The notes under the pieces are model-generated. The model saw nothing but the letters and a program-made list of their open reading frames with translations. It had not been told where the DNA came from and ran no database searches. Positions 202-24,195 of a DNA stretch of 35,454 nt are shown here, piece by piece. The translations under genes were made by a program, and so were the position numbers. Location of the stretch: NCBI GenBank assembly GCA_001940705.1, contig MEHG01000010.1, forward strand, positions 1-35,454. The letters are read 5' to 3'. Position 1 is the first letter of the stretch, and each line of letters starts with the position of its first letter. The DNA comes from Candidatus Thorarchaeota archaeon AB_25. GTDB taxonomy: Archaea > Asgardarchaeota > Thorarchaeia > Thorarchaeales > Thorarchaeaceae.

Positions 202-1467
202 ATGTCACAACTCACATTTCTAGGCTCTTGTCGTGAGATAGGTCGGTCTGGTTTCTTTATTGAACAGAACGAAGAGAGTGTCTTGGTCGATTATGGAGTG
301 AAGTTTACAGAGCCTCCCTCATTTCCTGATATGGTTCCCACAGGTGGATTGCAAGGTGTGGCGTTGACACACGCTCACTTGGATCATTCAGGAGGAATCC
401 CACGGATACTTGCTGGAAGTGAGGCATCATTATTTTGCACTCCCGCCACTCGTGATTTGAGTACCCTACTTCTTCGTGACATGTACAAGATCTCTCGAGG
501 TCCATTACCCTACACACGCAAAGATGTTGCTCTTGTAAAGCGACAATGCCAAGCAACTGCCTACGAAGAAACAGTTCCGTTAGGTCATCACTTTGAGATG
601 ACCCTCTTCAATGCAGGCCACATCCCTGGAAGTTCTATGGTTTCAGTCAGGGTGGATGGTAAGAGGATTCTATTCACAGGAGACTTCAATGCAACAGAAT
701 CTCAACTCACTCCTGGGGCAAGAAAGAACTTACCAAAACACGATATTGTTGTGACTGAGAGTACCTATGCCCGGAGAACCAATCCCAATCGAGAGCAGAT
801 TGAAGTTGCTCTTATGGACTCCGTGATCGAAACACTAGAACGAGGTGGGACGGTCCTGATCCCAGCTTTTGCAGTGGGTCGAAGTCAAGAGATAATGTGC
901 ATCCTTGAGAAAAATGGTCTTCCACAGAAATATCCCATTTACGTGGATGGAATGGCTCGAGGAGTTAATGATATTCTTGTGAAGCACCCAGAGTATCTTC
1001 AGAGTCCTCAAGCTTTCCAACGTGCAGTCAAGCGGGCTCATATTATTCACGATAATCGAGACCGTACAAACGCCGTCAAAAAGGGTGGAGTGATTGTATC
1101 CCCTGCAGGGATGCTAAAGGGTGGAGCATCACATCTCTATTTCAAGATGGTTCATGATGACCCAAAGAACTCCATTATTCTAGTGAGTTACCAAATTCCT
1201 GGTACTCCTGGAGCAGAACTCCTCGCAACCCGAAAAGTCACTGTTGGTGGTCGATTGTTTGAAGTGAGTGCTGATGTGCGTCAACACCATCTCTCATCAC
1301 ACTCTGACTCAAAGGGCATGTTGGATATGCTTTTGAAAATCCCAGGCGAACCAAAATTCTACATTATCCACGGCGAGTCAGAATCTTGTGACGCACTGGC
1401 TGAAAGACTAGAGAAACGAAAGCGTGTGGCTCATGTTCCAGAAATAAACGAGTCTGTTGAGATTTAA
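202..1467 (+). CDS. MBL-fold / beta-CASP ribonuclease-like protein (archaeal CPSF2/RNase J-like)
   Basis: 421 aa ORF with metallo-beta-lactamase motifs THAHLDHSGG, GHIPGSS, FTGDFN, plus beta-CASP-type ESTYA and C-terminal HLSSHSD / IIHGES; no N-terminal KH domains seen. Confidence 0.9.
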   Translation: MSQLTFLGSCREIGRSGFFIEQNEESVLVDYGVKFTEPPSFPDMVPTGGLQGVALTHAHLDHSGGIPRILAGSEASLFCTPATRDLSTLLLRDMYKISRGPLPYTRKDVALVKRQCQATAYEETVPLGHHFEMTLFNAGHIPGSSMVSVRVDGKRILFTGDFNATESQLTPGARKNLPKHDIVVTESTYARRTNPNREQIEVALMDSVIETLERGGTVLIPAFAVGRSQEIMCILEKNGLPQKYPIYVDGMARGVNDILVKHPEYLQSPQAFQRAVKRAHIIHDNRDRTNAVKKGGVIVSPAGMLKGGASHLYFKMVHDDPKNSIILVSYQIPGTPGAELLATRKVTVGGRLFEVSADVRQHHLSSHSDSKGMLDMLLKIPGEPKFYIIHGESESCDALAERLEKRKRVAHVPEINESVEI

Positions 1468-1679
1468 GCCTCTTCAGCACCAGTTCGTGCTTCAACAACC
1501 TGACACTTAATCTGTTGGAGTAGCTCCTCTGCCTTCTGGGGCTCAACAATGAGTGTATATAGGTAGCTCCGAGTGCGGAGCTTCAGCTTGACCTGATCTT
1601 TGCCCCTCTTGACTCGGCATTCCTCTGCATCTTCACTCAACTCGAGGAACTTGTCGATATTATGGATCTGTTTTGGCAT
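1464..1679 (-). CDS. rpl38e: Large ribosomal subunit protein eL38
   Basis: Internal ATG at 1679 gives MPKQIHNIDKFLELSEDAEECRVKRGKDQVKLKLRTRSYLYTLIVEPQKAEELLQQI, matching the L38e pattern (MPKQI...F...KxxxDxVKFKxR..RYLYTLxV..xEKAE). Confidence 0.88.
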   Translation of the reverse strand: MPKQIHNIDKFLELSEDAEECRVKRGKDQVKLKLRTRSYLYTLIVEPQKAEELLQQIKCQVVEARTGAEEA

Positions 1680-1814
1680 TGCTAAGCACCATACTGATGT
1701 TGTGATGTGGTGGACCGGTCGAGATTCGAAGACGAATCGAACCTGTAGCTCCACCTGCTGATGGCACGGCTAATGTATGTGTTATAACTCTAACGCTATG
1801 ATAAGAGAAGAAAC

Positions 1815-2818: not shown

Positions 2819-3688
2819 TCACAAAGCTTCCTTTAGGAGCCTGGCAACATCACTCGGTTTGTCTGCTACTGCAACTCCTGCATCATTTAATGCCTTGATT
2901 TTCGCTGCTGCAGTCCCTGAACTTCCACTGATTATGGCACCAGCATGTCCCATACGTTTTCCGGGGGGTGCAGTCCTGCCTGCAATGAAGCCAACTACTG
3001 GAAGGTCGTATTCCTTCTTAATGTAGGCTGCAGCCCGTTCTTCAGCGTCACCACCAATCTCACCTACTAGGACAAGTGCTTTGGTGTCCTTATCCTCTTT
3101 GAACAGTTTGACAGCCTCAATTGTTGTCAGCCCCACGCATGGATCGCCTCCAAGACCAAGTGCGGTTGATATTCCAATACCTGCGTTGGTCATCCCAGCT
3201 GCAATCTCATAGGTCAATGTTCCACTACGAGACATGAGTCCAACATCACCATGTGAGAACACATGACCTGGCATGATTCCGACCTTCTGTTTTGCACCAG
3301 GAGTGATGATTCCTGGAGTGTTAGGACCAATCACTGTGATTCCTTTTGCCTTGGCCTCATGAATCACGCGAATCTCATCTTTAACAGGCACATGTTCGGT
3401 AATCAGGACTACTGGGTTTAGGTCCGCTGCAATGGCCTCAAGAGCGGCATCCCCGGCAAAGGGTGCTGGAACGAAGATGATTGACGCATTTGCACCTTGT
3501 TCGTCCTTTGCCTCAATAACGCTGTCATAAACTGGTACTCCATTCACAACCTCCCCAGATTTACCAGGTGTGACTCCAGCAACTATCTTTGTACCATACT
3601 CCAACATTGCTCCAGAATGGAATGTTCCCTGCCCACCAGTGATACCTTGCACTATGACCTTGGTGTCTTTGTCCACAAGAATTGCCAT
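2819..3688 (-). CDS. sucD: Succinate-CoA ligase (ADP-forming) subunit alpha
   Basis: [25 protein letters not shown]..., [26 protein letters not shown] phospho-His region. Confidence 0.96.
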
Positions 3689-4834
3689 CTATGCAACCTC
3701 CTTCACGAGATCAACTACCTTTGAGGCAGCATCTTCCATCGTCTTGAGGAACGGTATCCCTGCTTTGTTGAGTATCTCTTGCCCCTCTTCTTCGTTTGTC
3801 CCTACCATCCGAATCACCATGGGTGCAGTGATGTCCCCGTCGTTTCTTGCAGCCAGAATTCCCCTGGCAACATCGTCGCATCTAGTGATGCCTCCCATAA
3901 TGTTGACTAGGATTGCTTTCACCTTGGGATACATCAAAGCAATCTCTATGCCCTTCTCAACTCTCTCAGCATCCGCTCCACCTCCAAGATCGAGAAACGT
4001 ACTTGCTTCTCCTCCATAGAGTGATATTGCATCCAGTGTCGCCATTGTGAGACCTGCACCATTGCAAATACATGCGATATTTCCATCAAGTTCTACGTAT
4101 GCCATGTCATTCTCAGTGGCTAATTTCTCACGTTCATTTTGTTCAACAGGTTCGCGTTTGAGCCTCTCAATGATGGTTTTGTGTCTGTAGAGCGAGTTAT
4201 CATCGATATTCAACCTCGCGTCTGCAGCAAAGAATCTACCATCCTTTGTAAGAATTAGTGGATTAATCTCAGTTAGTTCAACATCATACGCCTCGACAAT
4301 CTTCCAGAGTTTCAAGAAGAAGCTACCTAGCTGATTGATTTGTTTGCCCTTGAATCCCATTGCTATTGCCATCTGGCGAGCTTCGAATGCTTGGAAACCA
4401 AGACTAGGATCGACATGCATCTTGATGATCTTCTCTGGACTCTCCTCTGCCAGTTCTTCGATTGACATTCCTCCGGCCGCACTACCGATTACGACGTACT
4501 TCCGCTCGTTCCGATCAATGGTTATTCCAGCATAGATTTCTTGCTTAATGTCCAATTTTTCTTCGATCAAGACGGCCTCAACTGGGAGGTCGTTGATACG
4601 CATCTTCAGGATTTCTTCTGCGTATTTCTCTGCTTCCTGTGGTGTATCAGCAAACTTTACACCACCGGCTTTTCCTCGTTTGCCTGCAAGAACCATCGCT
4701 TTTACGACAACAGGTTTTCCAACCTCAGTCGCACGTTCCTTTGCCTCTTTTGGAGTCATCGCAACGCCTCCAGGAGGAGTTAGCATCTTGAAGGCTCGGA
4801 AGATATCCTTGGCCTCATGTTCAAACAATTTCAT
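3689..4834 (-). CDS. sucC: Succinate-CoA ligase subunit beta
   Basis: [12 protein letters not shown]...ATP-grasp domain, [33 protein letters not shown]; directly abuts sucD. Confidence 0.96.
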
Positions 4835-4905: not shown

Positions 4906-7107
4906 TTACCTCATGGACTCTAATAATAAATGCAGACTTTTTTCGAGCTTCTTACTCTCTTTTCGTGCACTATGTTTGGAATCTAGGAGTTTGAGGAGGA
5001 TTGAGTTTACATACTCCAGTTCCTCCAAGCAGTTCTCTACAATCCCCGGCATGTCATCTTCGCAGATGATGTTCTCAATACTCTTCGCTGGTAATTTACT
5101 CAATACGCGTTTTACTACTTCTTTGGGAATGGTGGTCCGTGTCAACACAACATTCCTCAGAATCGTCTTCAAATCGCTCTTTTCGTCAGCAATTGCCTTC
5201 ATCACTCGCTTAGCATCTTTTACAGGTACACCAAGAACTGCAACATCTTCTCCCAGTTCAGTGCAACGTACTCCGTCTTTATCACGGACAATTAATCGGT
5301 CTGCTTCTAGTTCATCGTACACTTCAAGTCCACGAAGTGCCTGCATTATCACACCTGCAGCATAGGGCTTGGTGTCCTCCTCATTGAGTGCATATCTTGC
5401 GAATTTCACCAAATGTTTACAGAGTCTATGTTTCCTTATGCCTTGGTATTTCCATGATTCACAAGAGCATGAAACGCCATCTTTTGCCCTCAGTGTAGTA
5501 TAATGCCAAATCTCTCTACTGCCACTGTGCACAAGACCCTCTATCTTATCTGGTCTGACCGATACAAGTTTCACACTTTTATCAGGTATTTCTCTTGCTC
5601 TTGAAAATGTGGATCTTGTAGACCTGAGTGTGAGTAGATTCTCCACTGCTGTTTCATCTTGACTTTCAGCCTGACGAATATCTGTTACAAGGCTACTGCT
5701 TCCCCAGAATGTACGGTCAATCACTGAGAAGGGGTCTTCTCCTCCCTTGGATTTTCCACATAGCTGTCGCAATACCAGGTCCTGAACATTCTCAGTTTCA
5801 TCCATTACGCTGTCTACTTCACCATGCCTTGGTTTTAGATTGCCTTCTGAATCCTCTTCGAAGTACTTAGCAATCACTCGAACTCTTTCAGACTCGTTAT
5901 CGACCACAACGATACCAAACGCCTCGTTGTCAACTCCCCTTCTTCCCGCTGCTTCAAGAACATCACTCAACTGCCACTCAGACAGCATTGTGACTGCATC
6001 CTCCTGAGAAGCCTCCTCGCCAAACTCTTGCATAAAGACTCCCATCAGGAAAACAACAGTCGCTCTCAATCCACTAGCAATGGCAAAGCGAGTTGGCATT
6101 ACAATGACTGGCAGAAGACCATCCTCCCAAGCCTCTGAGAGTTCTCTTCTCTGAATTATACCAACTCCTTCATGGATGAATGCAACTCCCTTGGAGATAG
6201 TTTGGCTCAGATTTATGGTGGTTTCACATTGAGGGTATTTCTCCTTGATGTCAAGTGAGAGAAGCCTGAGGTCATCTCTATGCTCGGGTGATAGTCTCAA
6301 GTCAAGAGCTGACGTTTTACTACCTGTTTCGATATCTGCTAGTTGGAGGGCCAATTCCTCGCAGGTGGCTATATTTGCGGCCAGTATCATCACTTGCCCC
6401 TGCCTATAGGTGACAAACTGGGTCTGGTCTGTAAGTGAGTCATCTGAATCTTCAAAGGTCATCACACTGAAAATCATCTTCACATCTACCTTAGGATCCT
6501 CCACAATCTCTGCACTCAACCATTTTCCAAGCTCCTCTTTATCCTCAAGAGGTGGGCAGATGGCTGCATATTGAATATCTCCTTGGCTCAAAAAAGTCAC
6601 AAGGGCTGTTTCTAGACGTGCTCCGATACCCGGTTGTCCAATCAGATCAAGACGATCAACCAACACATAGACTACTCCATCAAGAATATCCGGATTGACC
6701 CGTGAAGCGATGTCCAGTGAAGTATAGGTCGCAACTACAACTCTACCGGAGCCTGCATCTTCTCTTGTTGCAGCCCTTCTCCGAATCATTTCCGAAGCCT
6801 CGATACCTAGACGGTGGCATTTCTGGCTTAATGATCGAAATCGTTTCTCTGCTTGGTGCGGGTTAGGACAAAGTACCACTGCTCGTGCCCTATGGTCTGA
6901 AGCAACACGGTTGAGGAGCGCAATCTCGCCAATCATATACGCCTCATCATAGTCATATGTCATGAGAAGCTGGCTATTCCCTCTCATTATTCCTTGTTGA
7001 ACTGAAGCGGACTGGAATCTAGTGAGTGTGGCAAGTCCTTGCCGTCTGAGCAACTCCAACAGACGTGGGGCGACTTGTTGAAGTTCCAATTCCTTAAGAG
7101 TGCTCAA
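4906..7107 (-). CDS. Ski2/Hel308-like helicase with degenerate ATPase motifs and a SWIM zinc finger
   Basis: 733 aa. Helicase-like layout: FQSASVQQGI near the Q/Walker A region, VVVATYTSLDIASR, GVAFIHEGVGIIQRRELSEAWEDGLLPVIVMPTRFAIASG, AAGRRGVDNEAFGIVVV. Walker A and DExH not conserved. CSC-x13-CKH fits SWIM CxCxnCxH. Confidence 0.75.
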   Translation of the reverse strand: MSTLKELELQQVAPRLLELLRRQGLATLTRFQSASVQQGIMRGNSQLLMTYDYDEAYMIGEIALLNRVASDHRARAVVLCPNPHQAEKRFRSLSQKCHRLGIEASEMIRRRAATREDAGSGRVVVATYTSLDIASRVNPDILDGVVYVLVDRLDLIGQPGIGARLETALVTFLSQGDIQYAAICPPLEDKEELGKWLSAEIVEDPKVDVKMIFSVMTFEDSDDSLTDQTQFVTYRQGQVMILAANIATCEELALQLADIETGSKTSALDLRLSPEHRDDLRLLSLDIKEKYPQCETTINLSQTISKGVAFIHEGVGIIQRRELSEAWEDGLLPVIVMPTRFAIASGLRATVVFLMGVFMQEFGEEASQEDAVTMLSEWQLSDVLEAAGRRGVDNEAFGIVVVDNESERVRVIAKYFEEDSEGNLKPRHGEVDSVMDETENVQDLVLRQLCGKSKGGEDPFSVIDRTFWGSSSLVTDIRQAESQDETAVENLLTLRSTRSTFSRAREIPDKSVKLVSVRPDKIEGLVHSGSREIWHYTTLRAKDGVSCSCESWKYQGIRKHRLCKHLVKFARYALNEEDTKPYAAGVIMQALRGLEVYDELEADRLIVRDKDGVRCTELGEDVAVLGVPVKDAKRVMKAIADEKSDLKTILRNVVLTRTTIPKEVVKRVLSKLPAKSIENIICEDDMPGIVENCLEELEYVNSILLKLLDSKHSARKESKKLEKSLHLLLESMR

Positions 7108-7370: not shown

Positions 7371-8117
7371 ATGGTCATGGCTTTCGTAGCTACCACTGAT
7401 TCATCTTTCAAAATCATATTGAAGAAAGACTTCAAGGTCAAACCAGGATCGACTTTCATCTGTGGATTTCATGGTTTAGGTGAAGTAGGTTTCTTGAGCA
7501 CAGCCCATCTGACTCGAACCTTGGAGGCTGAACGTGTTGGTTTCATCAAGAGCGATATGCTCCCACTCTTCGTTTCAATGGAGAATGAACGTCTTGTTCT
7601 ACCATTTGAGCTCTATTCCTATGATAAGAAGAAGATGATATTTCTAGTTCCGCGTTTTCAACCACACCAGTCTGAACAATGGGGTTTCATCGATAAGCTA
7701 GCATGTTGGGTGGCTGAAAATAAGTTCAAAGAAGTACTGCTCCTTGGAGGGCTCGACGCATCTTTCAAGGAAGATGAAGAAGATATGCGATGTGTGCCAA
7801 CTTCCGCATATGGAGAATTGCTTGAAAAATGGAAAGTTCCTATCCTTGAAGAAGGTCTGTTCGTGGCTGGACCACTAGCACTGTTCCTTGCAGAGCTTGA
7901 GATGCAAGACGTTCCTGCGATTGGTTTACTCACATACGCAACCAGAGGCCGTCCTGACCCACGGTCTGCAGCAACTATGCTTGAAAAGATCAATGAAATC
8001 TATGGCGTAGGGGCAAATGTCGAGCAACTCCTCGAAGAGTCCCGAGAGATTGAACGGCTTGAGAAAATGAGGAAATCCATCGAGGATTCAGATCGCACAA
8101 GCGATATGTTTGTCTAA
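7371..8117 (+). CDS. PAC2 family protein (proteasome assembly chaperone-like)
   Basis: FICGFHGLGEVGFLSTAHL, VLLLGGLDA, GLLTYATRGRPDPRSAATMLEKINEIYG pattern; TATA-like CATATAAAG at 7291; alternative start at 7377. Confidence 0.8.
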   Translation: MVMAFVATTDSSFKIILKKDFKVKPGSTFICGFHGLGEVGFLSTAHLTRTLEAERVGFIKSDMLPLFVSMENERLVLPFELYSYDKKKMIFLVPRFQPHQSEQWGFIDKLACWVAENKFKEVLLLGGLDASFKEDEEDMRCVPTSAYGELLEKWKVPILEEGLFVAGPLALFLAELEMQDVPAIGLLTYATRGRPDPRSAATMLEKINEIYGVGANVEQLLEESREIERLEKMRKSIEDSDRTSDMFV

Positions 8118-12843: not shown

Positions 12844-15800
12844 GTGAGTTACACGACACGCCAAATCTCCCAAATAGTGAACGAGAGGACTAGTCCAGTG
12901 AGCGCCGCAACGAAATCTTCCCGCAGAAGAATGGGTCTTACCACCCTCATAAGCGCAATCTTCATAGTCGCAAGTCTCGTTTGGGCAACATATAATTTTG
13001 TAATCGTTCAGTCCGGTTCTGTCCGTCAGTATGACCCACATTATGAATATGATGATATTGAACTCTGGCCATACAACATACCAGGTTGGGGCGGAGGAAG
13101 AACCAATTGGTTTGATAATTTCAACTACACAGATGGTCTTGTTGGTCAGCCACTTCCAGATGATCTTCTTGACCATTTAGATGACATCATATTTACGGTG
13201 GTACCGAGAGACCCACCCCAGTTATGGCGGGTCGGTGCGTATGACGATTATGATGGTTCAAACTGGGGCAAAATCAACGTTGGTACTTGGCCTGTGGACA
13301 CAGGTGCACAGCTGATAACATATGGTGAGGCGACCAACCCAGTTTACACTGTGATTTTTAACACCACCGCAGGTGCCACAGTTGGCTCAATTGAGCTACC
13401 TACGCTCTTTCCAGAGATACGCGTGATTGAGGATTCTTTCACCGTATGGAGCTTCTATCCAGATGGTACACCATATCGTGATCCTGGCCGGCTCTTGGAC
13501 TATGATTTAGAAACTGACGAGTATGGTACACTTCTCTTTACACCATTCATTCAGGGATCTACTGGTGAAGAAGTCGTAGTTTCATTTGACCTCACTTTCG
13601 AAACTCAGGACATAGATAATGTCATTGCCAATGCACTACCCGGTAGCGGTGCTGTGGGAATGGATGACTACCTCGGTTTGCCTACATTAACTCCAGAAGT
13701 AATCGCCAACATTAGTCAATTTTCAGGCGTTGGAAGTAATGCATATGAAACGGCTATGGCTGTTCAACTATACTTCCAAAGCACCTTCAATCTCACAATT
13801 AATCCTACAGCATTAGGCGACCGACCAGAAGGTCAAGAAGTCACTGATTGGTTCCTCGAACGTGGTGGCGGACTTCCGATGGACTTTGCCACTGCGTATT
13901 GTGTGTTCATACGGCATCTCGGTATTCCTGCTCGTTTGGCGATGGGTTATGCAGTCGGTGACCCCGACCCAATAGATGACTTTAGAACGATCAAAGTCAG
14001 ACATATGGCCTTCTGGACCGAGGTCTTTATTCCAATGTCAGGAGCCACTCAAGGTGAGTGGATTCAAGTCGTTCCTGCAGTGTTGCCTGATGATTCAGGT
14101 GGTGGTGAGGATCCTACCAACGTACCAACACCTGATGTTCAACTCAGAGTTTGGCCCACAAATGGACAACCGTGGGCACAGATTGGAACTCCCTTTGAGT
14201 TGAGCGCTGAAATCACTGTGGATGGAGTTCCTGTCACAACTCCTGAGCCTATCATCTTCCATGATGAAACTGACAATGAGTTCATAGGTGTCCAAACAAT
14301 TGGACAGGCACCTGACAACCCCATTGCAAATATCACATACGTATTTCCTGCACATGCTTCTGTAGACTATCATATTATGGCTGCAACTTGGCAGGCAGGG
14401 ACACTCTCGATCACGAATCGAACGTCAATCTATGCTGTAGGAACACCAGATCCTTATGCATATCCATCACCTCCCGCTGGCATTGATGGGTTTGTCTTGA
14501 GTGAAACGAGGGATCTAAATGTCAGTCAAGGCTTAGACACCCACATTGCATTTTGGGAGGACACAGTCCATGTCTATGGAACAATGAAAGTGGGTGGAGT
14601 CCCCGTTAACAGTACAAATCATGATAACAGGAATATCGGTATCTACTGGGATAATTCATTCATGGGAAATGCATCCATTGACCAGTATGGCTATTATGAA
14701 TTAGACATCTATGTCGATCCAATGGACCTTTCAAGAATGATTGTGGGAAATCACGAAGTCTGGTCGTGGTACTTGGGAGATTGGGATCAATATGGTATTC
14801 CCCGATTGAATGAAGCACGTTCGAGTGACAACTCCACTGCTACGGTTTGGGGTCGAGTGGGATTCGATTTGAACGTATACCCAGTCAATATTGCTGCTGG
14901 AGGAAGAGTCTACTATGATGGTTTCGTTTATCTCCTAAACGGTACAGCCTTACGAACGAGCCAGTTTGTAGGGGCTTTCTTTCATACGCAGGCTAATGCT
15001 ACACGCCCATTGAACTCCACAGGAGGTTTCCAGTGGAGCTACGATATACCTGTGACCCAACCTGATGGTATATATTTTGCACGGGTTAACTGGACTTCTC
15101 CGTGGCCACTCATCGCAGGTAACTGGAGCATTTCTGTTCCAGTGGATGTTGGTTCCAGTGGGACGCACCTCTCAATCTCTCCATTACCAGATCCTCTCTA
15201 CGTAGCTTGGAATATCACAATCAGCGGATACTTGACCCATGCATCTAATGCCACTGGTATAGGTGGTCGTTGGGTTGATATCTATTGGAATAATGGATCG
15301 GAATTTCTCTTAGGATCAGTACTCACGGCTTCTGATGGTTATTACGAGTTCAACTACACAGTTCTTGTTTCTGATGAAGGTCCAATTGAATACTGGTCAA
15401 GCTTTACATCAATGGAACCAACTCTAGCAAGTTCAGAATCAGTTCACCGTTTTACAAGTGTGAAGAAATATGATGTATCTCTGGACCCAATCTTTGTTAC
15501 TCCTGACCCTGTGTATCTTCTTCAACCAGTTGATATTCAGGGAACGCTACAGCTCTCAGAGTTTGGAATTCCATTACCCAATGAATGGGTTGATTTCTGG
15601 TTACAGAACAGCACAGGTGTCTTCTATATTGGAGGTGTGATGACAAACTCCACTGGTGGCTATCTCTATCAGTATACAATCCCTATAGGTCAGACTACTG
15701 AAACAGTGTACATCTGGGCAAACTACACTTCGCCTTACTATACAGTCTATGATAAGGAGTCAATTCATGAACCTCTAGATATTCAAGCCACAGGCACTCT

Positions 15801-18800
15801 CATTTCGATTCAGGAAGACTTCATATTCTATTATGTGAATGAAACCATTTTCCTATACGGAAATCTACAGTTTGCGAACGGTACCCCGATTCCCTCTCAG
15901 TTGGTTGATATCTATTGGATTAACTCAACTGGTACCTTCCATTTCCAGAAGATGACTGATGCATTTGGGGATTACCAGATGTTCTACAACTGTACTCCAA
16001 CGCAAGATGAGCCTGAAACAATATCTGTGGATGTTTATTGGACTTCTTGGACTCCAATCTACGATGATGCCTCCAGTTCGCTAGCGCCTCAGATACAGCT
16101 ACAGAGATATGACCTTGAGATTACGCTCACAGTTCCGACCCAGCTCTATGTAGATGAACTAGACTTCGATGTTGAGGGAGTGCTCTCATATACTGGTGGT
16201 GCTCCACCCCTCTCGAATGAGTGGGTCGACATCTACTACTCGAATGGTACTCATTGGCTATTGATTGATAGTCAATTGACTAACTCCACAGGAGGATTTC
16301 TATCGCTACTCTCTTTTGCGACCTATGATGAAGGGATAGTTGATTTTGCAGCATTCCACGCAAGCTCTGACCCGTTGAGAAACAATGCTTTAGAATACTT
16401 TAGTATCAATCGAGTGAAGTACACAATTACTCTCGATGTTACTATCAATCCCAATCCGGTCATGCAAAACGAAACTCTCACTGTTCATGTTCATGCTTAC
16501 TTTACACACAATGGAACTAATCTCTCAGGTGCCACAATATCATTATTCTGGAATAATGGCACACTACCGCTTCCTTGGCTTGGTGATGTTATAACAAATA
16601 GTACTGGTCAGGACGACTTAATCTACTCAGGAATGGACTGGGACACTGTCAGAACGGGTATTGAGGTCTATGGTATCTACGGAAACACAGTCTTCATTGC
16701 ATCAGTTGAGTCAGCCCATAACATTCTCACACTGAACCAATGGCAGACTGCGTTCGCAGGTGTCAACCTCCCTGTGGTATTATACAGGATTGGTGAGACT
16801 GTGGTGGTGACTGGGGATCTAGAAATCTGGAAACCTTCATTTCCAAGTGTTCCATACGCTAGTGCAACGGTTGAACTGACACTGTTTGGAACTACAAGGA
16901 CAACTGATGTGACAACCTCAGACGGGTCGTTTACCCTGAGTTGGGATATACCTGGGACAATCGCTCCAGGGTTCTATGACTTGTTTGTTGAATTCAATTC
17001 GCCATATCCATGGATAGCAGACTCAGCATCCGCATTGCCACAGATACAGGTCGTTGCACCTGGATATCTATGGCCTGAGTTCTCAGTTACGCCTACAACA
17101 GTCTATTTGGACCAGATATTGAACATAACAGGTAGAGTGACCTGGGACAATGGAACACCATACGCGAGTTCCCCAGTTGACCTCTACTGGGGCGATTATT
17201 TTGGTGCATACGATTGGTTTGTTCTGAACTTCAATACAGACTCTAGTGGTAGGTTTACGTATCTCTATCCAATCCCTGATGATATGGGTCTTCTTGGTCC
17301 TCGAGAGGTCTGGGCATACATCGATCAAGTTGGCTATGCTACTTCTGGTGAGTCACCTCGCATTCCAATCACCATAGCCATTTACACTATTAATCTCTCA
17401 GCTTCCGTAGATCTCACAATCATCTACCTGGAAGACAGTCTGACCTTTTCAGGGACTCTGCAGTTCACAAATAGTACTCCCATGGTCGACTATGATATTG
17501 AGATCTGGTGGGGTGGAAATCTTCTCACTACAGAAACAACCATTGGTGGGGGCGCGTTCATCTACATTCTTTCAGTGACCTATAGCTATGATGCTGATGT
17601 CTACACAGGATATGCATTATTCAGACCACCATCGATTGCTTTTGGTGATCTCGATACACCTGAACCCTTCAGTGATGTTACTGTGATTGAGCGTGTAGAT
17701 GTTTCTATGGACCTAGAGCCCTCTGATACCATTGTTAGCAGAGGTGAAACACTCGTCATTACGGGTGATGTAATCAACGATGGCGTGTTACCAGCAGATG
17801 GAGTTACAGTCGAGGCACTTGTAAATGGAATTCCAACAGGCGCGATGGCTGTTACGGCTGGAAATGGCCGCTATTCAATCTCATGGGTGGTTCCCGGATT
17901 CCAACCCCGTGGTTCTTACAACATCAGTGTGCATGTGATTTCATCATTCCATGAGATGTTCGCTGGACCATCAAATTGGTTTATAGATGTCTACATAGGT
18001 TCTGACGTTTTTGTACAAACAGATCTAGTATCTATAATGCCCGGAGAAAGTTTCTCAGTATATATTGAGCTTCAAGACGATGATAGCAATAATCTCCATG
18101 GTGAGTGGGTCCGGTTATTCATCGGCTCGATACGCCTTACAGATATTCAACTCACTGACGCAAGTGGAATGACATTTGATTTGGTAGTGCCCTTATCCTG
18201 GGATGGTGGAAGTGCACTCTTCAATATCACTGCACGTTATGCTGGTATGTCCTTTGTCGATCCCAGTATTGCTATGTCCATTAACCAGATCCATATCTTC
18301 ACTGACGTCGTCTTCATCTCAATTCCAGACAGGGTGGATCCCGGTCAGGACTTCAACATAGAGTCAACATTCCGCGATCCAGAGGGCAACCCCATTATGT
18401 TTCGTACCGTGTGGCTGGATTACAATGGTACAGATCGGTATCCCTACTTCATAGATGCAGATGGGGGATTCACACATCCTGTAGCTGCACAGACCGATGG
18501 GACGATAATTCAGTACACACTTACACTCGTTTCATTTGAAATTGATAATATACAATCTAATGAGTTCACAATTAATATTCAAACACAAGGTGGTAATCCA
18601 TTGCAAGGAACAGATTTACTCATAGCAGGTATCTTACTTATAGGTGCAGTCGTCGCCGTTCTGGCGTACCTGTACATAGTAAGGGGAATGTTCCGCGGTC
18701 CTGTTGTTTCGAGAGGATTTGACATCCCAGCAAAATTGCGAAACATCAAGAAACTCGCAGATGCAGGAAAGTATGGTGCTTCCATCACATTAGCTTACCG

Positions 18801-19047
18801 TACTTTTGAGCAGATGTGCGGCGCAAAGATGGGTTCAGAAAGAACTCACTCTGAAACCGCCCGTGAGTATCTTGATAGGGTCCTAGAAACAATTTCCCTC
18901 GATAGTGGGACTGTTGAACAATTTGTGCAGACATACGAAGAGGCTCGCTTTTCACATCATGAAATGACACGTGAGAGGTATGAAGAGGCCGTTCGTATCT
19001 TCACTGACCTATATCCCAGAATCGATTCAGCTGCCCCAGTAGAGTAA
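12844..19047 (+). CDS. Giant surface-anchored transglutaminase-like protein with tandem Ig-like repeats, C-terminal TM and DUF4129-like cytoplasmic domain
   Basis: 2067 aa, GTG start. N-terminal TM (LISAIFIVASLVWATYNFVIV); transglutaminase-like core DFATAYCVFIRHLGIPARLAMGY; repeated VDIYW.N.G/STG modules; C-terminal TM (LLIAGILLIGAVVAVLAYLYIV) then DUF4129-like THSETAREYLDRVL...FVQTYEEARFSHHEMT. Confidence 0.85.
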   Translation: MSYTTRQISQIVNERTSPVSAATKSSRRRMGLTTLISAIFIVASLVWATYNFVIVQSGSVRQYDPHYEYDDIELWPYNIPGWGGGRTNWFDNFNYTDGLVGQPLPDDLLDHLDDIIFTVVPRDPPQLWRVGAYDDYDGSNWGKINVGTWPVDTGAQLITYGEATNPVYTVIFNTTAGATVGSIELPTLFPEIRVIEDSFTVWSFYPDGTPYRDPGRLLDYDLETDEYGTLLFTPFIQGSTGEEVVVSFDLTFETQDIDNVIANALPGSGAVGMDDYLGLPTLTPEVIANISQFSGVGSNAYETAMAVQLYFQSTFNLTINPTALGDRPEGQEVTDWFLERGGGLPMDFATAYCVFIRHLGIPARLAMGYAVGDPDPIDDFRTIKVRHMAFWTEVFIPMSGATQGEWIQVVPAVLPDDSGGGEDPTNVPTPDVQLRVWPTNGQPWAQIGTPFELSAEITVDGVPVTTPEPIIFHDETDNEFIGVQTIGQAPDNPIANITYVFPAHASVDYHIMAATWQAGTLSITNRTSIYAVGTPDPYAYPSPPAGIDGFVLSETRDLNVSQGLDTHIAFWEDTVHVYGTMKVGGVPVNSTNHDNRNIGIYWDNSFMGNASIDQYGYYELDIYVDPMDLSRMIVGNHEVWSWYLGDWDQYGIPRLNEARSSDNSTATVWGRVGFDLNVYPVNIAAGGRVYYDGFVYLLNGTALRTSQFVGAFFHTQANATRPLNSTGGFQWSYDIPVTQPDGIYFARVNWTSPWPLIAGNWSISVPVDVGSSGTHLSISPLPDPLYVAWNITISGYLTHASNATGIGGRWVDIYWNNGSEFLLGSVLTASDGYYEFNYTVLVSDEGPIEYWSSFTSMEPTLASSESVHRFTSVKKYDVSLDPIFVTPDPVYLLQPVDIQGTLQLSEFGIPLPNEWVDFWLQNSTGVFYIGGVMTNSTGGYLYQYTIPIGQTTETVYIWANYTSPYYTVYDKESIHEPLDIQATGTLISIQEDFIFYYVNETIFLYGNLQFANGTPIPSQLVDIYWINSTGTFHFQKMTDAFGDYQMFYNCTPTQDEPETISVDVYWTSWTPIYDDASSSLAPQIQLQRYDLEITLTVPTQLYVDELDFDVEGVLSYTGGAPPLSNEWVDIYYSNGTHWLLIDSQLTNSTGGFLSLLSFATYDEGIVDFAAFHASSDPLRNNALEYFSINRVKYTITLDVTINPNPVMQNETLTVHVHAYFTHNGTNLSGATISLFWNNGTLPLPWLGDVITNSTGQDDLIYSGMDWDTVRTGIEVYGIYGNTVFIASVESAHNILTLNQWQTAFAGVNLPVVLYRIGETVVVTGDLEIWKPSFPSVPYASATVELTLFGTTRTTDVTTSDGSFTLSWDIPGTIAPGFYDLFVEFNSPYPWIADSASALPQIQVVAPGYLWPEFSVTPTTVYLDQILNITGRVTWDNGTPYASSPVDLYWGDYFGAYDWFVLNFNTDSSGRFTYLYPIPDDMGLLGPREVWAYIDQVGYATSGESPRIPITIAIYTINLSASVDLTIIYLEDSLTFSGTLQFTNSTPMVDYDIEIWWGGNLLTTETTIGGGAFIYILSVTYSYDADVYTGYALFRPPSIAFGDLDTPEPFSDVTVIERVDVSMDLEPSDTIVSRGETLVITGDVINDGVLPADGVTVEALVNGIPTGAMAVTAGNGRYSISWVVPGFQPRGSYNISVHVISSFHEMFAGPSNWFIDVYIGSDVFVQTDLVSIMPGESFSVYIELQDDDSNNLHGEWVRLFIGSIRLTDIQLTDASGMTFDLVVPLSWDGGSALFNITARYAGMSFVDPSIAMSINQIHIFTDVVFISIPDRVDPGQDFNIESTFRDPEGNPIMFRTVWLDYNGTDRYPYFIDADGGFTHPVAAQTDGTIIQYTLTLVSFEIDNIQSNEFTINIQTQGGNPLQGTDLLIAGILLIGAVVAVLAYLYIVRGMFRGPVVSRGFDIPAKLRNIKKLADAGKYGASITLAYRTFEQMCGAKMGSERTHSETAREYLDRVLETISLDSGTVEQFVQTYEEARFSHHEMTRERYEEAVRIFTDLYPRIDSAAPVE

Positions 19048-19065
19048 GATAACGGAGAGATACGA

Positions 19066-20451
19066 ATGGGCTGGAAAGAGATCCTGCAAGTGATCCTATT
19101 CATCTTAGCATGGATTCCAGTGGGTATTCTAGCTGGAAGTACATTGATTGGAGTAGAGTCAAGCTACGCCTATGACTTCTCCATATACAACGATCAATAT
19201 GATGGTCTCAGCCAGTTCTCGAACAACATTGAAAGTAACGGTCGAGATGTCATGTCGATCCAAGCTAGCATGAGCGTGGCATCGAGATACAACGGGTCTG
19301 CTGTAATTGTTATCATGGGGCCTGTTAGAGACTTTAGTCTGGATGCAGCGCTTGTCATATTTACTCATTTGATGGCAGGTGGTGGTGTACTCATCGCTGA
19401 CGACTTTGGGTCCGCGAACTCATCACTTGCATTACTGAACTTTCTCTTCAACGAGTTCATCGGGTCCAATCAAACAGCAGGTCTCTTATCGTTCTTAGAT
19501 GGAGTTCTTTTCGATTTAGATTCGTATGATTTAGAAAAAGAGCCAAGACTGCCTATCATCAGAGACTTCAGAGTAGGTGGTGATGGTGGGGCACTAACAG
19601 CAGGAGTTAGCGAACTACACCTCAACTGGGCCTCAGCAATCAATCCTTATTGCTTACTTGGTCAATCTGGTATTGCTTGGACAACGCCACGGTCATGGTG
19701 TGAAACAGACATTACGAATGACACTCCAGCGGTGGACCCCTGGGAATTAGCTGGAACCCTTCCTGTTGCTGGCGCAATTGATTTGGGGGCTGGTGGTGGG
19801 AAACTGGTCGCGGTCAGTGATCCCAGTATATTCAATAATGACATGTGGAGTAGGTTCTCTGGGAATCGTCGGTTTGGCGACAACATAATTGACTGGCTCA
19901 CAGATGGTAATACGTCCCAACCCGTTCTATTCTGCGAACAGCTTCTTGAGATTCCATGGTGGGAGAGTGAATTCTTCTTCGGACTATACTTAGGCAGGGT
20001 CCTATGGCTCTCATCATTGCCTATTTTGTCAGCAGCCTATCCCCTCATCACTACTCTGGGAATCAAAAAATACCTCCCTGACATAAAGAAACCCGATGTC
20101 AAGAGTGTTTCAGATGTATTTTTGAGACGGGGCCAGACGTATTTCAGCGAACGGATGACTTACTACCGGTCAGAGGGGAACTATACAAGAGTAGTAAAAA
20201 TGTTGTACCGCCGTTTGAGACGGGGATTACGAAAAACACAGCAATGGACTGAATATGATTCCAAGAAAGTGTGGGAAACAATGCATTACAAAGATCCGAA
20301 ACTAAAGGAGAATGAGTTCTTCAGAATTATTGCTCGTATTGAGGAGATCTCTGCAAATCCAAATATCAAGATTAAGGAGAATGAGATGATGGAGCTCTTC
20401 TTCTTCATGCGTAACATCCAATCACATATGATAGACACAAGAAAGAGGTAG
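19066..20451 (+). CDS. DUF4350-like membrane protein of a MoxR/DUF58 locus
   Basis: N-terminal TM, VIVIMGPVRDFSLDAALVIFTHLMAGGGVLIADDFGSAN (DUF4350-like), VAVSDPSIFNNDMW, second TM, cytoplasmic basic tail. Confidence 0.75.
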   Translation: MGWKEILQVILFILAWIPVGILAGSTLIGVESSYAYDFSIYNDQYDGLSQFSNNIESNGRDVMSIQASMSVASRYNGSAVIVIMGPVRDFSLDAALVIFTHLMAGGGVLIADDFGSANSSLALLNFLFNEFIGSNQTAGLLSFLDGVLFDLDSYDLEKEPRLPIIRDFRVGGDGGALTAGVSELHLNWASAINPYCLLGQSGIAWTTPRSWCETDITNDTPAVDPWELAGTLPVAGAIDLGAGGGKLVAVSDPSIFNNDMWSRFSGNRRFGDNIIDWLTDGNTSQPVLFCEQLLEIPWWESEFFFGLYLGRVLWLSSLPILSAAYPLITTLGIKKYLPDIKKPDVKSVSDVFLRRGQTYFSERMTYYRSEGNYTRVVKMLYRRLRRGLRKTQQWTEYDSKKVWETMHYKDPKLKENEFFRIIARIEEISANPNIKIKENEMMELFFFMRNIQSHMIDTRKR

Positions 20452-20458
20452 AACAAAA

Positions 20459-21448
20459 TTGACAACAGAAGAAACGAACGACACTGTGGCTATAGACACC
20501 TCGGCGACTATGTCAATAGACGAGGTTCATAGTAACGCGAGTGATATCATTCGAGAATGCAGCCGCATTATCGTTGGGAAAGAGGACATCCTACGTGATG
20601 TCCTAATCGCTTTCCTCTCTAACGGTCATGTTGTACTTGAAGGAGTACCTGGCATCGCGAAAACCTACATGGCTCGAACATTCGCTTCTATTTTGGGCTG
20701 TGCATTCAAAAGAATACAGCTCACTGTGGACACACTTCCAGCTGACTTGTTGGGAAGTAATGTGTTCAATCAGCGAACAGGCGAGTTCTGGTTCCGTAAA
20801 GGTCCAGTTTTTTCAAACCTTGTACTGGCTGACGAGATTAACAGATGTCCTCCCAAGTCACAGAGCGCATTACTCGAGGTAATGGAAGAACGACAGGTAT
20901 CAATTGAGGGTGTAACCCGTAAGCTCCCGAAACCGTTTCTGATTATCGCTACTCAGAACCCGGTAGAACAGGAGGGTACGTACCCCCTACCAGAAGCACA
21001 ACTTGACAGATTCATGTTCCGTCTGATACTGGGCTATCCTACTGATGAAGATGAAGCTGAAATTGTCAGGAGGAAACATCTTGGTGAAGCAACTGACCTG
21101 AATGTTCTAGCAGATCCTGCCGCGATGGTAAGGATGCAGAACACATGCAGAACCGTGTTCATCGAAGAAGATGTCATCAACTACATACGTGACATCGTTG
21201 TTCGCACACGAAATGACCCACAAATCCTGCTTGGAGGTTCCCCACGAGCATCACTAGTGCTCATGAACTCATCAAAAGCCCGTGCTGCAATGCTTGGTAG
21301 AGACTACGTCATCCCTGAGGATGTTCGCCGGCTCACAGTGCAAGCTCTGAATCACAGACTCATCCTAAAACCTGAGGCTGAGCTTGAAGGATTGACGGTG
21401 GAACGTGTCGTAACCAAGATACTTGGGGAAACTGATTGTCCGAAATGA
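20459..21448 (+). CDS. MoxR-family AAA+ ATPase
   Basis: Walker A GVPGIAKT, Walker B LADEINRCPPKSQSALLEVMEE, ATQNPVEQEGTYPLPEAQLDRF; TTG start preceded by GAGGT. Confidence 0.95.
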   Translation: MTTEETNDTVAIDTSATMSIDEVHSNASDIIRECSRIIVGKEDILRDVLIAFLSNGHVVLEGVPGIAKTYMARTFASILGCAFKRIQLTVDTLPADLLGSNVFNQRTGEFWFRKGPVFSNLVLADEINRCPPKSQSALLEVMEERQVSIEGVTRKLPKPFLIIATQNPVEQEGTYPLPEAQLDRFMFRLILGYPTDEDEAEIVRRKHLGEATDLNVLADPAAMVRMQNTCRTVFIEEDVINYIRDIVVRTRNDPQILLGGSPRASLVLMNSSKARAAMLGRDYVIPEDVRRLTVQALNHRLILKPEAELEGLTVERVVTKILGETDCPK

Positions 21449-21487
21449 AAATTGTCTATGCCATAAGCTAGATGGGGAAGATACGAA

Positions 21488-22810
21488 TTGATAACGCAGA
21501 GAGGCTTCGTGGTAGTGTTCGCAGGAGTCTTACTACTAACTAGTGGGTTCTCCTTCATTAACTTCTACCTCGTCCTCCTAGGTGTCTATTGTGTGATTGG
21601 TCTAGTAGTCACGTTGCCTCTCTTTGCGTTGACCGCCAATCTAGCTGGTATTGAAGTTGATCGTCAGATCGACAAAGTGAAAGTGTTCTCGGGAGATTTT
21701 CTACGGGTACGCGTTACAATCCGGAATACGTCTAGACGTCATTTTGACTTTATAGAGGTCCATGACCAATATCCAGAAACCTGGATATTGGCAATTGGTG
21801 AGAACTTCATCGCATCCAGGATTGAGCCTGGGAGCAGTATGACCTTCTCGTACATTCTACAAGCACGAATGCGTGGTCGTTACTATCTTGGACCAACCGA
21901 GGTTATCATGCGGGATAGACTTGGTCTGCACTACTACAAGAGAACCCTGAAGGAACACACCGAGGTACTCGTCTATCCGACATGGAAAGACGTTCGTCGT
22001 ATGGAGTCCTTCGCAAAGCAACGACAGCTTGGTCTCATGTTTGGTGCCCACCGTACCAAGACAGTGGGAATGGGTACTGATTTCGCAGGTTTCAGAGAAT
22101 ATGTTCCCGGTGATGAGTTCCGGTCCATTGATTGGAAATCGAGCGCAAAACGAGGTGACATGGTAGTCAAGCAGTGGGAACAAGAGAAGAATGTGCAGAT
22201 TGTTTGCATGGTGGATACTAGTGGAAGTATGGGGAACGGCTATCCTGAAAACACGAAACTCGAGTACGCAATTCGAGCAGCAGTCCTCCTCACTCACATG
22301 GGCCTTGAGAGGAAAGACTTGGTTGGTACCTGCGTCTTTAGTGACATTGTACATGGATATGTTCCTCCTGGAACCCGACCCAACCATATGTATGACGTTC
22401 TTGAAGTCCTAGCAATGGCTGAACCTAAAGGATGGAGTGACTACGAAACTGCTATTGCACATGTAGTAACACAGAGTAAGAAACGCTCGCTTGTCATCTG
22501 GATGACCGATCTTGAAGAGAGTCCTGCACCACTTCTCAATGCCATGAAGACCTTGGTGGCAAACGGTCACAAAGCTCTTATAATCAGTCCATTCGGTCCA
22601 TGGTTTGAAGCACCAGTTGGTCAATTTGGACCAGTTGAGAAGGTACTATCAGAAGCTGTATCTGAAGAGCTCTGGGAACGTAGAAACAAGATAGCCAGAG
22701 CACTATCCCGATTTGGAATTGATGTGATCAATGTTGGTCCAGAGGATTTCCTGGCCGTTATCATGAAGACTTACGAACAAGCAAAGCAACGGGGGGTGGC
22801 TACGTTTTGA
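21488..22810 (+). CDS. DUF58 / vWA domain protein
   Basis: GTDFAGFREYVPGDEFRSIDWKSSAKRGDMVVKQWEQEKN (DUF58 signature), MIDAS DTSGSMG, two N-terminal TMs; TTG start. Confidence 0.94.
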   Translation: MITQRGFVVVFAGVLLLTSGFSFINFYLVLLGVYCVIGLVVTLPLFALTANLAGIEVDRQIDKVKVFSGDFLRVRVTIRNTSRRHFDFIEVHDQYPETWILAIGENFIASRIEPGSSMTFSYILQARMRGRYYLGPTEVIMRDRLGLHYYKRTLKEHTEVLVYPTWKDVRRMESFAKQRQLGLMFGAHRTKTVGMGTDFAGFREYVPGDEFRSIDWKSSAKRGDMVVKQWEQEKNVQIVCMVDTSGSMGNGYPENTKLEYAIRAAVLLTHMGLERKDLVGTCVFSDIVHGYVPPGTRPNHMYDVLEVLAMAEPKGWSDYETAIAHVVTQSKKRSLVIWMTDLEESPAPLLNAMKTLVANGHKALIISPFGPWFEAPVGQFGPVEKVLSEAVSEELWERRNKIARALSRFGIDVINVGPEDFLAVIMKTYEQAKQRGVATF

Positions 22811-24195
22811 AAGTTGTCACATGGATTCTTCGGATTGCATCCGTCGCAACTTTCGCGGCCATGGCTTTCCTAGTCTATACCATTCTTGATCCAAATGACT
22901 TCTGGCATTGGGATGCTCCATACACTTTCGTAGTGACTGTATTCCGTTTGCTCTCTTTGATTGTCTTCTTCCTTGCATCAACAATGGCGAGTGGTCTTGC
23001 CAGCGCATTTGCAGGTGGAGTTTTGCCTGACAATCTGGTTGTGGGTCTCTACAACACACTTGTCCTCAAGACTTGGTATATGCAACCCTATGGATTATCA
23101 GATCCCTTAGCAAACGTACAACAAGTCTGGGCATCTTTTCAGTCCAATTTAATTAACGTACTTTTTGATCTCTGGGACAATACATTTCTATTTCTCTACT
23201 TCCTATGTGCTGGAATCGGTATAGCCCTATTTCTCCAATCACTTGTGAGGATGGATCACAAGTTTGTTGGCGGTGCCTTCCTCGCAATCCAAGCAATAGT
23301 CATTCTCGCTGCTTACAGAGCCCTTATTGTTCCAGACATTAGTCCTTTCCCTGTCGAGTTTGTTGATTTTCTTTTGGCAAGAGCGCAAATCCTTGCTCTC
23401 GCTTCCTTTGCGTATCTCGAAGTAAGCTATCAGATGATCTACAGTTATTCGGTTGGGAAACCGGTCGAAGATAGAGAAGAGACCCTCAAGAAACAGCTGT
23501 TGGCACTACGTCAAGCGACAAGGAAACAAGATGCAATTGAACGTGGTGAGAAGGTAAGCACAACTGGCATGAGTCGCTCAACAGGTGCAACTGCATTTTC
23601 ATTCCTCAGAGAGGCAATGGAACGAAAAGTAATGGGAAGTCAATCGGCGCTTGAGAGTTTGGATGCTGTATCAGATGTCCGTAGACTACAGATATACGTT
23701 GATGAATTACTTCAGAGTGACTCAAGAGCAAGAGATGAACTGACAGCAAAAGCCGCTGCTCCTTCATCCTCCTATGTTATTGGTTCCACAATTACTGGTT
23801 CAGCAATACGGTTCCTCACTGTTGTGGCGGTGTCATTCCTCCTGATGAGTCCCAATGTGGTTAGGATGATCCTCAATCTACCAATCGGTATAGAAAATAG
23901 CGTTGAGATGATTCAGCCTGAGATTGTCATCTTGTTTCTTGTACCAGTAGTTGGACTCTTCCCTTTTGCTGCTGCAGTCATCAGTTGGATTGGGAGACGA
24001 GAGGTTGTTGAGAAAGAGAAGCTCACAAAGGAAGAGAAGGAAGCTCAAAAGCAGAGGAAGAAGGAACTGGCCAGAAAACGGAAGGAAGCTGAAGAAGCCC
24101 GCAAAGCTCGTGCGAAAGCTAGGAAGAAGCGAAAGGATGATGAGGTAGAAGTGGACGAATGGGACAAGGCTCTTGAAGACTCCTTCAAACGATAG
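22807..24195 (+). CDS. Multi-pass membrane protein with Lys/Glu/Arg-rich coiled C-terminal tail
   Basis: Multiple hydrophobic segments; overlaps the DUF58 stop (TTTGA, TTG start); tail EKEKLTKEEKEAQKQRKKELARKRKEAEEARKARAKARKKRKDDE. Confidence 0.75.
   Translation: MKVVTWILRIASVATFAAMAFLVYTILDPNDFWHWDAPYTFVVTVFRLLSLIVFFLASTMASGLASAFAGGVLPDNLVVGLYNTLVLKTWYMQPYGLSDPLANVQQVWASFQSNLINVLFDLWDNTFLFLYFLCAGIGIALFLQSLVRMDHKFVGGAFLAIQAIVILAAYRALIVPDISPFPVEFVDFLLARAQILALASFAYLEVSYQMIYSYSVGKPVEDREETLKKQLLALRQATRKQDAIERGEKVSTTGMSRSTGATAFSFLREAMERKVMGSQSALESLDAVSDVRRLQIYVDELLQSDSRARDELTAKAAAPSSSYVIGSTITGSAIRFLTVVAVSFLLMSPNVVRMILNLPIGIENSVEMIQPEIVILFLVPVVGLFPFAAAVISWIGRREVVEKEKLTKEEKEAQKQRKKELARKRKEAEEARKARAKARKKRKDDEVEVDEWDKALEDSFKR

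Follow-up and report, generated by a model that had tools for sequence, protein, structure and literature searches.

The window analyzed here comprises 35,454 nucleotides of contig MEHG01000010.1 of Candidatus Thorarchaeota archaeon AB_25. At positions 4906–7107, the minus strand carries a single open reading frame of 733 codons (the coordinates include the stop) that starts with TTG, has an in-frame stop just upstream of this start, and is preceded by a GGAG sequence about 9 nt ahead of the TTG. The gene and its product are referred to as the pseudohelicase in the following. Downstream and in the same direction, separated by a gap of 71 bp, is sucC-sucD (2819–4834, minus strand), which adjoins the pseudohelicase gene in every orthologous locus reaching that far. 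The divergent neighbor is a PAC2-family gene (7371–8117, plus strand), likewise present in the orthologous loci that extend to this point. The Thorarchaeal order reads ThrS, a deaminase, NOP2, a PUA protein, PAC2 (opposite strand), the pseudohelicase, sucC, sucD, and a beta-CASP protein (opposite strand), and is mostly fixed where contigs reach, with members missing now and then. The window also encodes the ribosomal protein eL38 (1464–1754, minus strand; Pfam Ribosomal_L38e, E = 2.8e-14) and, at 12844–24195 on the plus strand, a probable extracellular protein of 2067 aa that appeared transglutaminase-like by eye, followed downstream by genes that, again by eye, resemble those for a MoxR-type ATPase and DUF58-type proteins.

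Profile searches matched residues 10–421 of the pseudohelicase to NCBIfam PRK00254 (E = 1.3e-22) and Hel308 (E = 2.7e-20), and a search of PDB sequences matched it to Hel308 2zj2 (E = 4.3e-17). AlphaFold2 modeling with 60 relatives yielded a structure with a mean pLDDT of 86.5 and a pTM of 0.87, for which archaeal Hel308/Hjm proteins were the best solved counterparts (Z 31.7, 3.3 Å, 574 residues, model residues 3–733). As this alignment included motif-intact relatives, the protein was refolded as a control with the 38 motif-less orthologues only (pLDDT 81.3), and the best match was again a Hel308, 2va8 (Z 32.5, 561 residues). The Hel308 architecture is therefore independent of borrowed helicase sequence, and the notion that the fold was merely borrowed from motif-intact relatives was ruled out. 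Both models display the Hel308 order of two RecA-like domains, a winged helix, and a helical ratchet (Z of about 32 with 561–574 residues aligned), and the nearest folds were those of the DNA helicases Hel308 and Pol-theta, ahead of Mtr4/Brr2. On the minus strand, RecA-like domain 1 (residues 1–209) occupies 6481–7107 and the winged-helix domain (residues 421–507) 5587–5847, both delimited approximately from the models and Hel308 superposition; RecA-like domain 2 (residues 210–420), placed from the AlphaFold2 model, occupies 5848–6480. A SWIM domain insert (residues 508–578; 5374–5586, by alignment) precedes the C-terminal helical region, comprising the ratchet and helix-loop-helix (residues 579–733; 4909–5373, approximate boundaries by structure match). 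The initial annotation had described an open frame of 733 codons with a Ski2/Hel308-like layout and had named structural comparison with Hel308 as a check; the frame was borne out on the minus strand, the layout is upheld by the profile matches, and the predicted structure can be overlaid on Hel308 along its full length, also when only orthologues were used.

Within this fold, motifs I, II, III, IV, V, and VI are all replaced. The Walker A region comprises residues 46–63, QLLMTYDYDEAYMIGEIA, in which TYDYDEAY (residues 50–57; 6937–6960, minus strand as for all motifs) takes the place of [SA]P[ST][GA]SGKT. According to the orthologue alignment, DExH/Q of motif II is replaced by DRLDLIG (residues 151–157; 6637–6657), SAT of motif III by CPP (residues 184–186; 6550–6558), TTTLAAGxN/D of motif V by PTRFAIASG (residues 338–346; 6070–6096), and QMLGRAGRPG of motif VI by DVLEAAGRRG (residues 382–391; 5935–5964). 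GKT occurs in none of the 38 full-length Thorarchaeal orthologues. At the Walker A position all 38 have Ala or Gly instead of Lys, Glu (E55) instead of Gly, and an Asp at position 52, and 37 have Tyr (Y57) instead of Thr. Similarly, in 38 of 38 the Walker B Glu is replaced by R152 and His/Gln of motif II by D154, SAT of motif III is missing, and the Gln and first Arg of motif VI (QxxGRxGR) are gone, the latter being Ser, Ala, or Gly, while the second Arg is retained as Arg or Lys. The Gln of the Q-motif (Q32) is still conserved among the orthologues. All 33 sampled relatives outside the pseudohelicase clade retain both GKT and the DE of motif II.

The lost motifs have given way to substitutes that are themselves conserved. 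Common to the 38 orthologues are T-Y/H-D-Y/F-x-E-A/G-Y, D/E-R-x-D-x-I-G (residue 151 being Lys or Arg in two of them), and PP; D52, E55, R152, D154, I156, G157, P338, F341, and S345 are invariant. Compared with motif-intact relatives, about 40 positions shifted from one conserved residue to another, and the mean net charge of domain 2 is −6.6 in pseudohelicase orthologues versus about +5 in motif-intact relatives. The turn to acidity suggests that domain 2 has lost its backbone-gripping face. The three motif strings reported earlier were all found in the 733-aa translation (among them VLVDRLDLI at residues 148–156 and AAGRRGVDNEA at 386–396), and the alignment of Asgard orthologues, which had been proposed as a check, revealed neither GKT nor DExH at the orthologous locus. 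With respect to the view that the catalytic motifs are eroded, the losses are real and common to 38 of 38 orthologues; as judged from the alignment, the positions are re-specified with other conserved residues and not merely eroded.

The zinc ligands of the SWIM finger, identified by sequence pattern and alignment, are C547-S-C549-x13-C563-K-H565 (nt 5469–5413, minus strand), within a few bases of where a CSC-x13-CKH finger had been placed before. None of the four ligands varies across the 71 aligned relatives, 38 of 38 orthologues included. The segment (about residues 508–578) follows the winged helix, precedes the C-terminal helical domains, and represents the most conserved portion of the orthologues, with a pairwise identity of 0.71 versus 0.62 in the motif-intact Thorarchaeal paralogue. 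The Pfam SWIM profile scored 16.5 bits on the window copy, under its cut-off of 19.6 bits, and a SWIM profile search across PDB sequences gave no match. Shu2/SWS1-family SWIM proteins bind RAD51 paralogues (PMC6316741). The pseudohelicase resembles them in its CxC...CxH finger, and its motif-intact relatives in their RAD51-paralogue neighborhood; in contrast, Shu2/SWS1 is not a helicase, and the Shu2/SWS1-type CXHXXA reads CKHLVKF in the pseudohelicase, lacking the Ala.

A phylum-wide search returned close relatives of the pseudohelicase from 45 of 47 genomes in the family to which the window belongs, and nearly all named records with such relatives belong to Candidatus Thorarchaeota. In the remaining two genomes, G197 and G205, its two neighbors sucC and PAC2 are missing along with it, indicating that the region is absent from those assemblies; gene loss was therefore rejected in favor of an assembly gap. 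In a further genome, G213, the gene is cut at an apparent scaffold join. Across 24 close pairs of orthologues, dN/dS (Nei-Gojobori) was 0.07–0.17, and pairwise identity in domain 1 is 0.60 among pseudohelicase orthologues versus 0.59 among motif-intact Thorarchaeal paralogues. The pseudohelicase is thus under strong purifying selection. Apart from the odd motifs themselves, nothing was found in favor of neutral decay or an artefact in one genome's assembly; 38 intact, full-length orthologues come from many assemblies, with the low dN/dS and fixed neighbors, so that such an origin is extremely improbable. The earlier statement that this is not a decaying pseudogene agrees with motif losses shared throughout the orthologues.

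Two more relatives are encoded in the same genome. One is a canonical Hel308 (L003), the other a motif-intact SWIM helicase (L002:1231–3426) with its finger in the same place as in the pseudohelicase. The pseudohelicase has the full domain order and fold in common with archaeal Hel308/Hjm (2zj5, 2va8, 2p6r) but differs from it by the absence of Walker A, DExH, SAT, and a complete motif VI and by the SWIM finger between winged helix and ratchet; canonical Hel308 coexists with it as a separate gene. Motif-intact SWIM-Hel308 proteins, which match the pseudohelicase in domain order and SWIM position, also occur in other Asgard lineages (L064–L103). In a tree from which the motif columns were removed, all SWIM-Hel308s split from canonical Hel308 as one clade with a support of 100, and inside this family the motif-less proteins formed a single clade whose support is likewise 100 and whose stem measures about 2 changes per site. 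When lineage f26, a long branch, was included, the motif-less clade grouped with f26, f27, and f28; when f26 was omitted, the tree fixed no sister. Joining the motif-less clade to the motif-intact Thorarchaeal paralogue, as expected for a Thorarchaeal duplication, was not rejected in an AU test (p = 0.10). The SWIM-Hel308s of f26 itself (L065 and L071) have an intact Walker A and DEFQ while motif III reads SDI and motif VI GKAGNYKYD, possibly reflecting, as far as these residues indicate, a second and partial loss of helicase activity. The motif-intact SWIM-Hel308 family of Thorarchaeota and other Asgards is apparently undescribed; neither this family, nor a Thorarchaeal or other archaeal SWIM helicase, nor a Hel308-type pseudohelicase with SWIM kept across an Asgard class was found described in a literature search that was thin on subscription journals.

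Many of the motif-intact SWIM-Hel308 genes reside in RadA/Rad51-paralogue clusters. A Rad51-paralogue gene is located nearby in lineages f1, f4, f12, f14, and f17, some clusters also hold full RadA-like proteins and FEN1-type and XPD-type genes, and two of the six Rad51-family matches in the window's genome lie within 7 kb of the L002 gene. These genomic links of SWIM-Hel308 point to recombination more than to RNA processing. The pseudohelicase gene adjoins no recombination genes and is apart from such clusters in its own genome, so that its proposed recombination partners are borrowed from its relatives. Beside motif-intact SWIM-Hel308 we also noticed a gene (L136:8834–11185; also L002:3423–4835) whose product, judged by eye, resembles a HerA/VirB4-type ATPase in which the P-loop is damaged (GGTENSRHH). 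This gene gave no Pfam match and is conserved across the Thorarchaeal loci examined.

Helicase ancestry, loss of the catalytic residues, and constraint on the gene are together very probable on the sequence evidence, which would make the pseudohelicase a neofunctionalised, ATPase-dead member of the SWIM-Hel308 family. On balance, we consider it slightly more likely than not that a Thorarchaeia-wide pseudohelicase arose from SWIM-Hel308 and now acts as a non-motor recombination scaffold. A single event on the stem leading to Thorarchaeia would have deprived a copy of a SWIM-finger Hel308 of ATP binding and hydrolysis, and this copy would then have been rebuilt into a non-motor protein that kept the Hel308 fold and the SWIM ligands. 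We infer that a P-loop with conserved Asp and Glu and without Lys, Thr, and the glycine-rich turn rules out ATP hydrolysis; some nucleotide contact may occur, given the conserved Q32 and one Arg of motif VI. As an ATP-independent scaffold, the pseudohelicase would use its SWIM finger and C-terminal helical domains to hold nucleic acid or another protein. The likeliest partner would be a RadA/Rad51-paralogue or the cell's own motif-intact SWIM-Hel308, and recombination would thereby be regulated. The recombination-scaffold role taken by itself has somewhat less than an even chance, and the acidic domain 2 speaks against retained backbone gripping there.

The adaptor role suggested in the initial annotation is an inference; our scaffold model is drawn by analogy with two inactive helicases. 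The C-terminal cassette of Brr2 is of Ski2 type, enzymatically inactive, and serves as a protein-interaction platform that regulates the active cassette (PMC8220420); it differs from the pseudohelicase in that it still binds nucleotide, forms one polypeptide with its active partner, functions in splicing, and has no SWIM finger. PriA of D. radiodurans, a lineage-restricted prokaryotic pseudohelicase, retains binding to DNA and to its helicase partner (PMC4504706), but belongs to a different family and shows milder motif changes (GKT to GRT). In humans, HelQ interacts with BCDX2, a complex of RAD51 paralogues (PMC4999840).

The main rival to a recombination scaffold is a role in RNA or ribosome biology, with the pseudohelicase as a SWIM-bearing RNA-binding scaffold comparable to Utp25, a dead helicase fold retained as a structural factor of the SSU processome (PMC9539457), although Utp25 is of the DEAD-box family and acts in eukaryotic ribosome assembly. 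The conserved NOP2/RsmF-type rRNA methyltransferase, PUA protein, and beta-CASP protein nearby and eL38 in the window are in line with such a role. In lineage f27 (L126/L127), moreover, a motif-intact SWIM-Hel308 gene comes after a co-oriented NOP2-PUA-PNP, an arrangement similar to the NOP2-PUA-x-gene order of the window; the likeness is suggestive, and the NOP2 link may be older than Thorarchaeia. However, with about 11 lineages some shared neighbor could well arise by chance (roughly estimated at one in three), PAC2 on the opposite strand separates the pseudohelicase from NOP2-PUA, leaving sucCD as its sole close same-strand neighbors, and its nearest folds are DNA helicases. We therefore regard an RNA role as doubtful.

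Two further explanations concern the ATP pocket itself. It is quite unlikely that the pocket was rebuilt to bind a new ligand or metal or to serve in catalysis, with D52, E55, D/E151, and D154 together with R109, R110, and R152 as a different active center. Among the 38 orthologues these residues vary little or not at all and, except for position 151, they differ from equally conserved helicase residues; on the other hand, the Lys or Arg at position 151 in two orthologues does not fit, Pfam recognized no known enzyme motif, and conserved charged pairs could equally hold a rigid, ligand-free core. An emptied ATP site in which the acidic D-Y-x-E-A-Y loop faces D/E-R-x-D-x-I-G would as a new functional site make the protein an ATP-free switch or enzyme on recombinase filaments, which we likewise consider unlikely. 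A few enzymes do function with degenerate P-loops, and the retained Q32 and motif-VI Arg would suit an ATPase that persists via unorthodox residues. The inactive Brr2 cassette, too, still binds ADP/ATP (PMC8220420). Such an activity is nevertheless very unlikely for the pseudohelicase, since none of the 38 orthologues retains the Lys or Thr of Walker A, the Glu of Walker B, motif III, or the first Arg of motif VI, and conserved Asp and Glu occupy the loop at the phosphate site.

Pseudohelicases are already known from the Brr2 C-terminal cassette, D. radiodurans PriA, and Utp25; what is new here is a class-wide Asgard pseudohelicase, predicted to be of Hel308 type, with a SWIM finger and re-specified catalytic motifs. 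Pseudoenzymes are usually recognized through lost residues. The conserved-to-conserved switches at about 40 positions document directly, in sequence, how a motor protein was converted and then held fixed. If the reading of a new site is true, a helicase fold was given a different job across a whole Asgard class. The gene neighborhood of the motif-intact SWIM-Hel308s unites a Hel308-type helicase, a SWIM finger, and Rad51 paralogues in Asgard archaea. As HelQ, SWS1/Shu2, and RAD51 paralogues are separate interacting proteins in eukaryotes, SWIM-Hel308 may bear on the origins of the eukaryotic recombination mediators.
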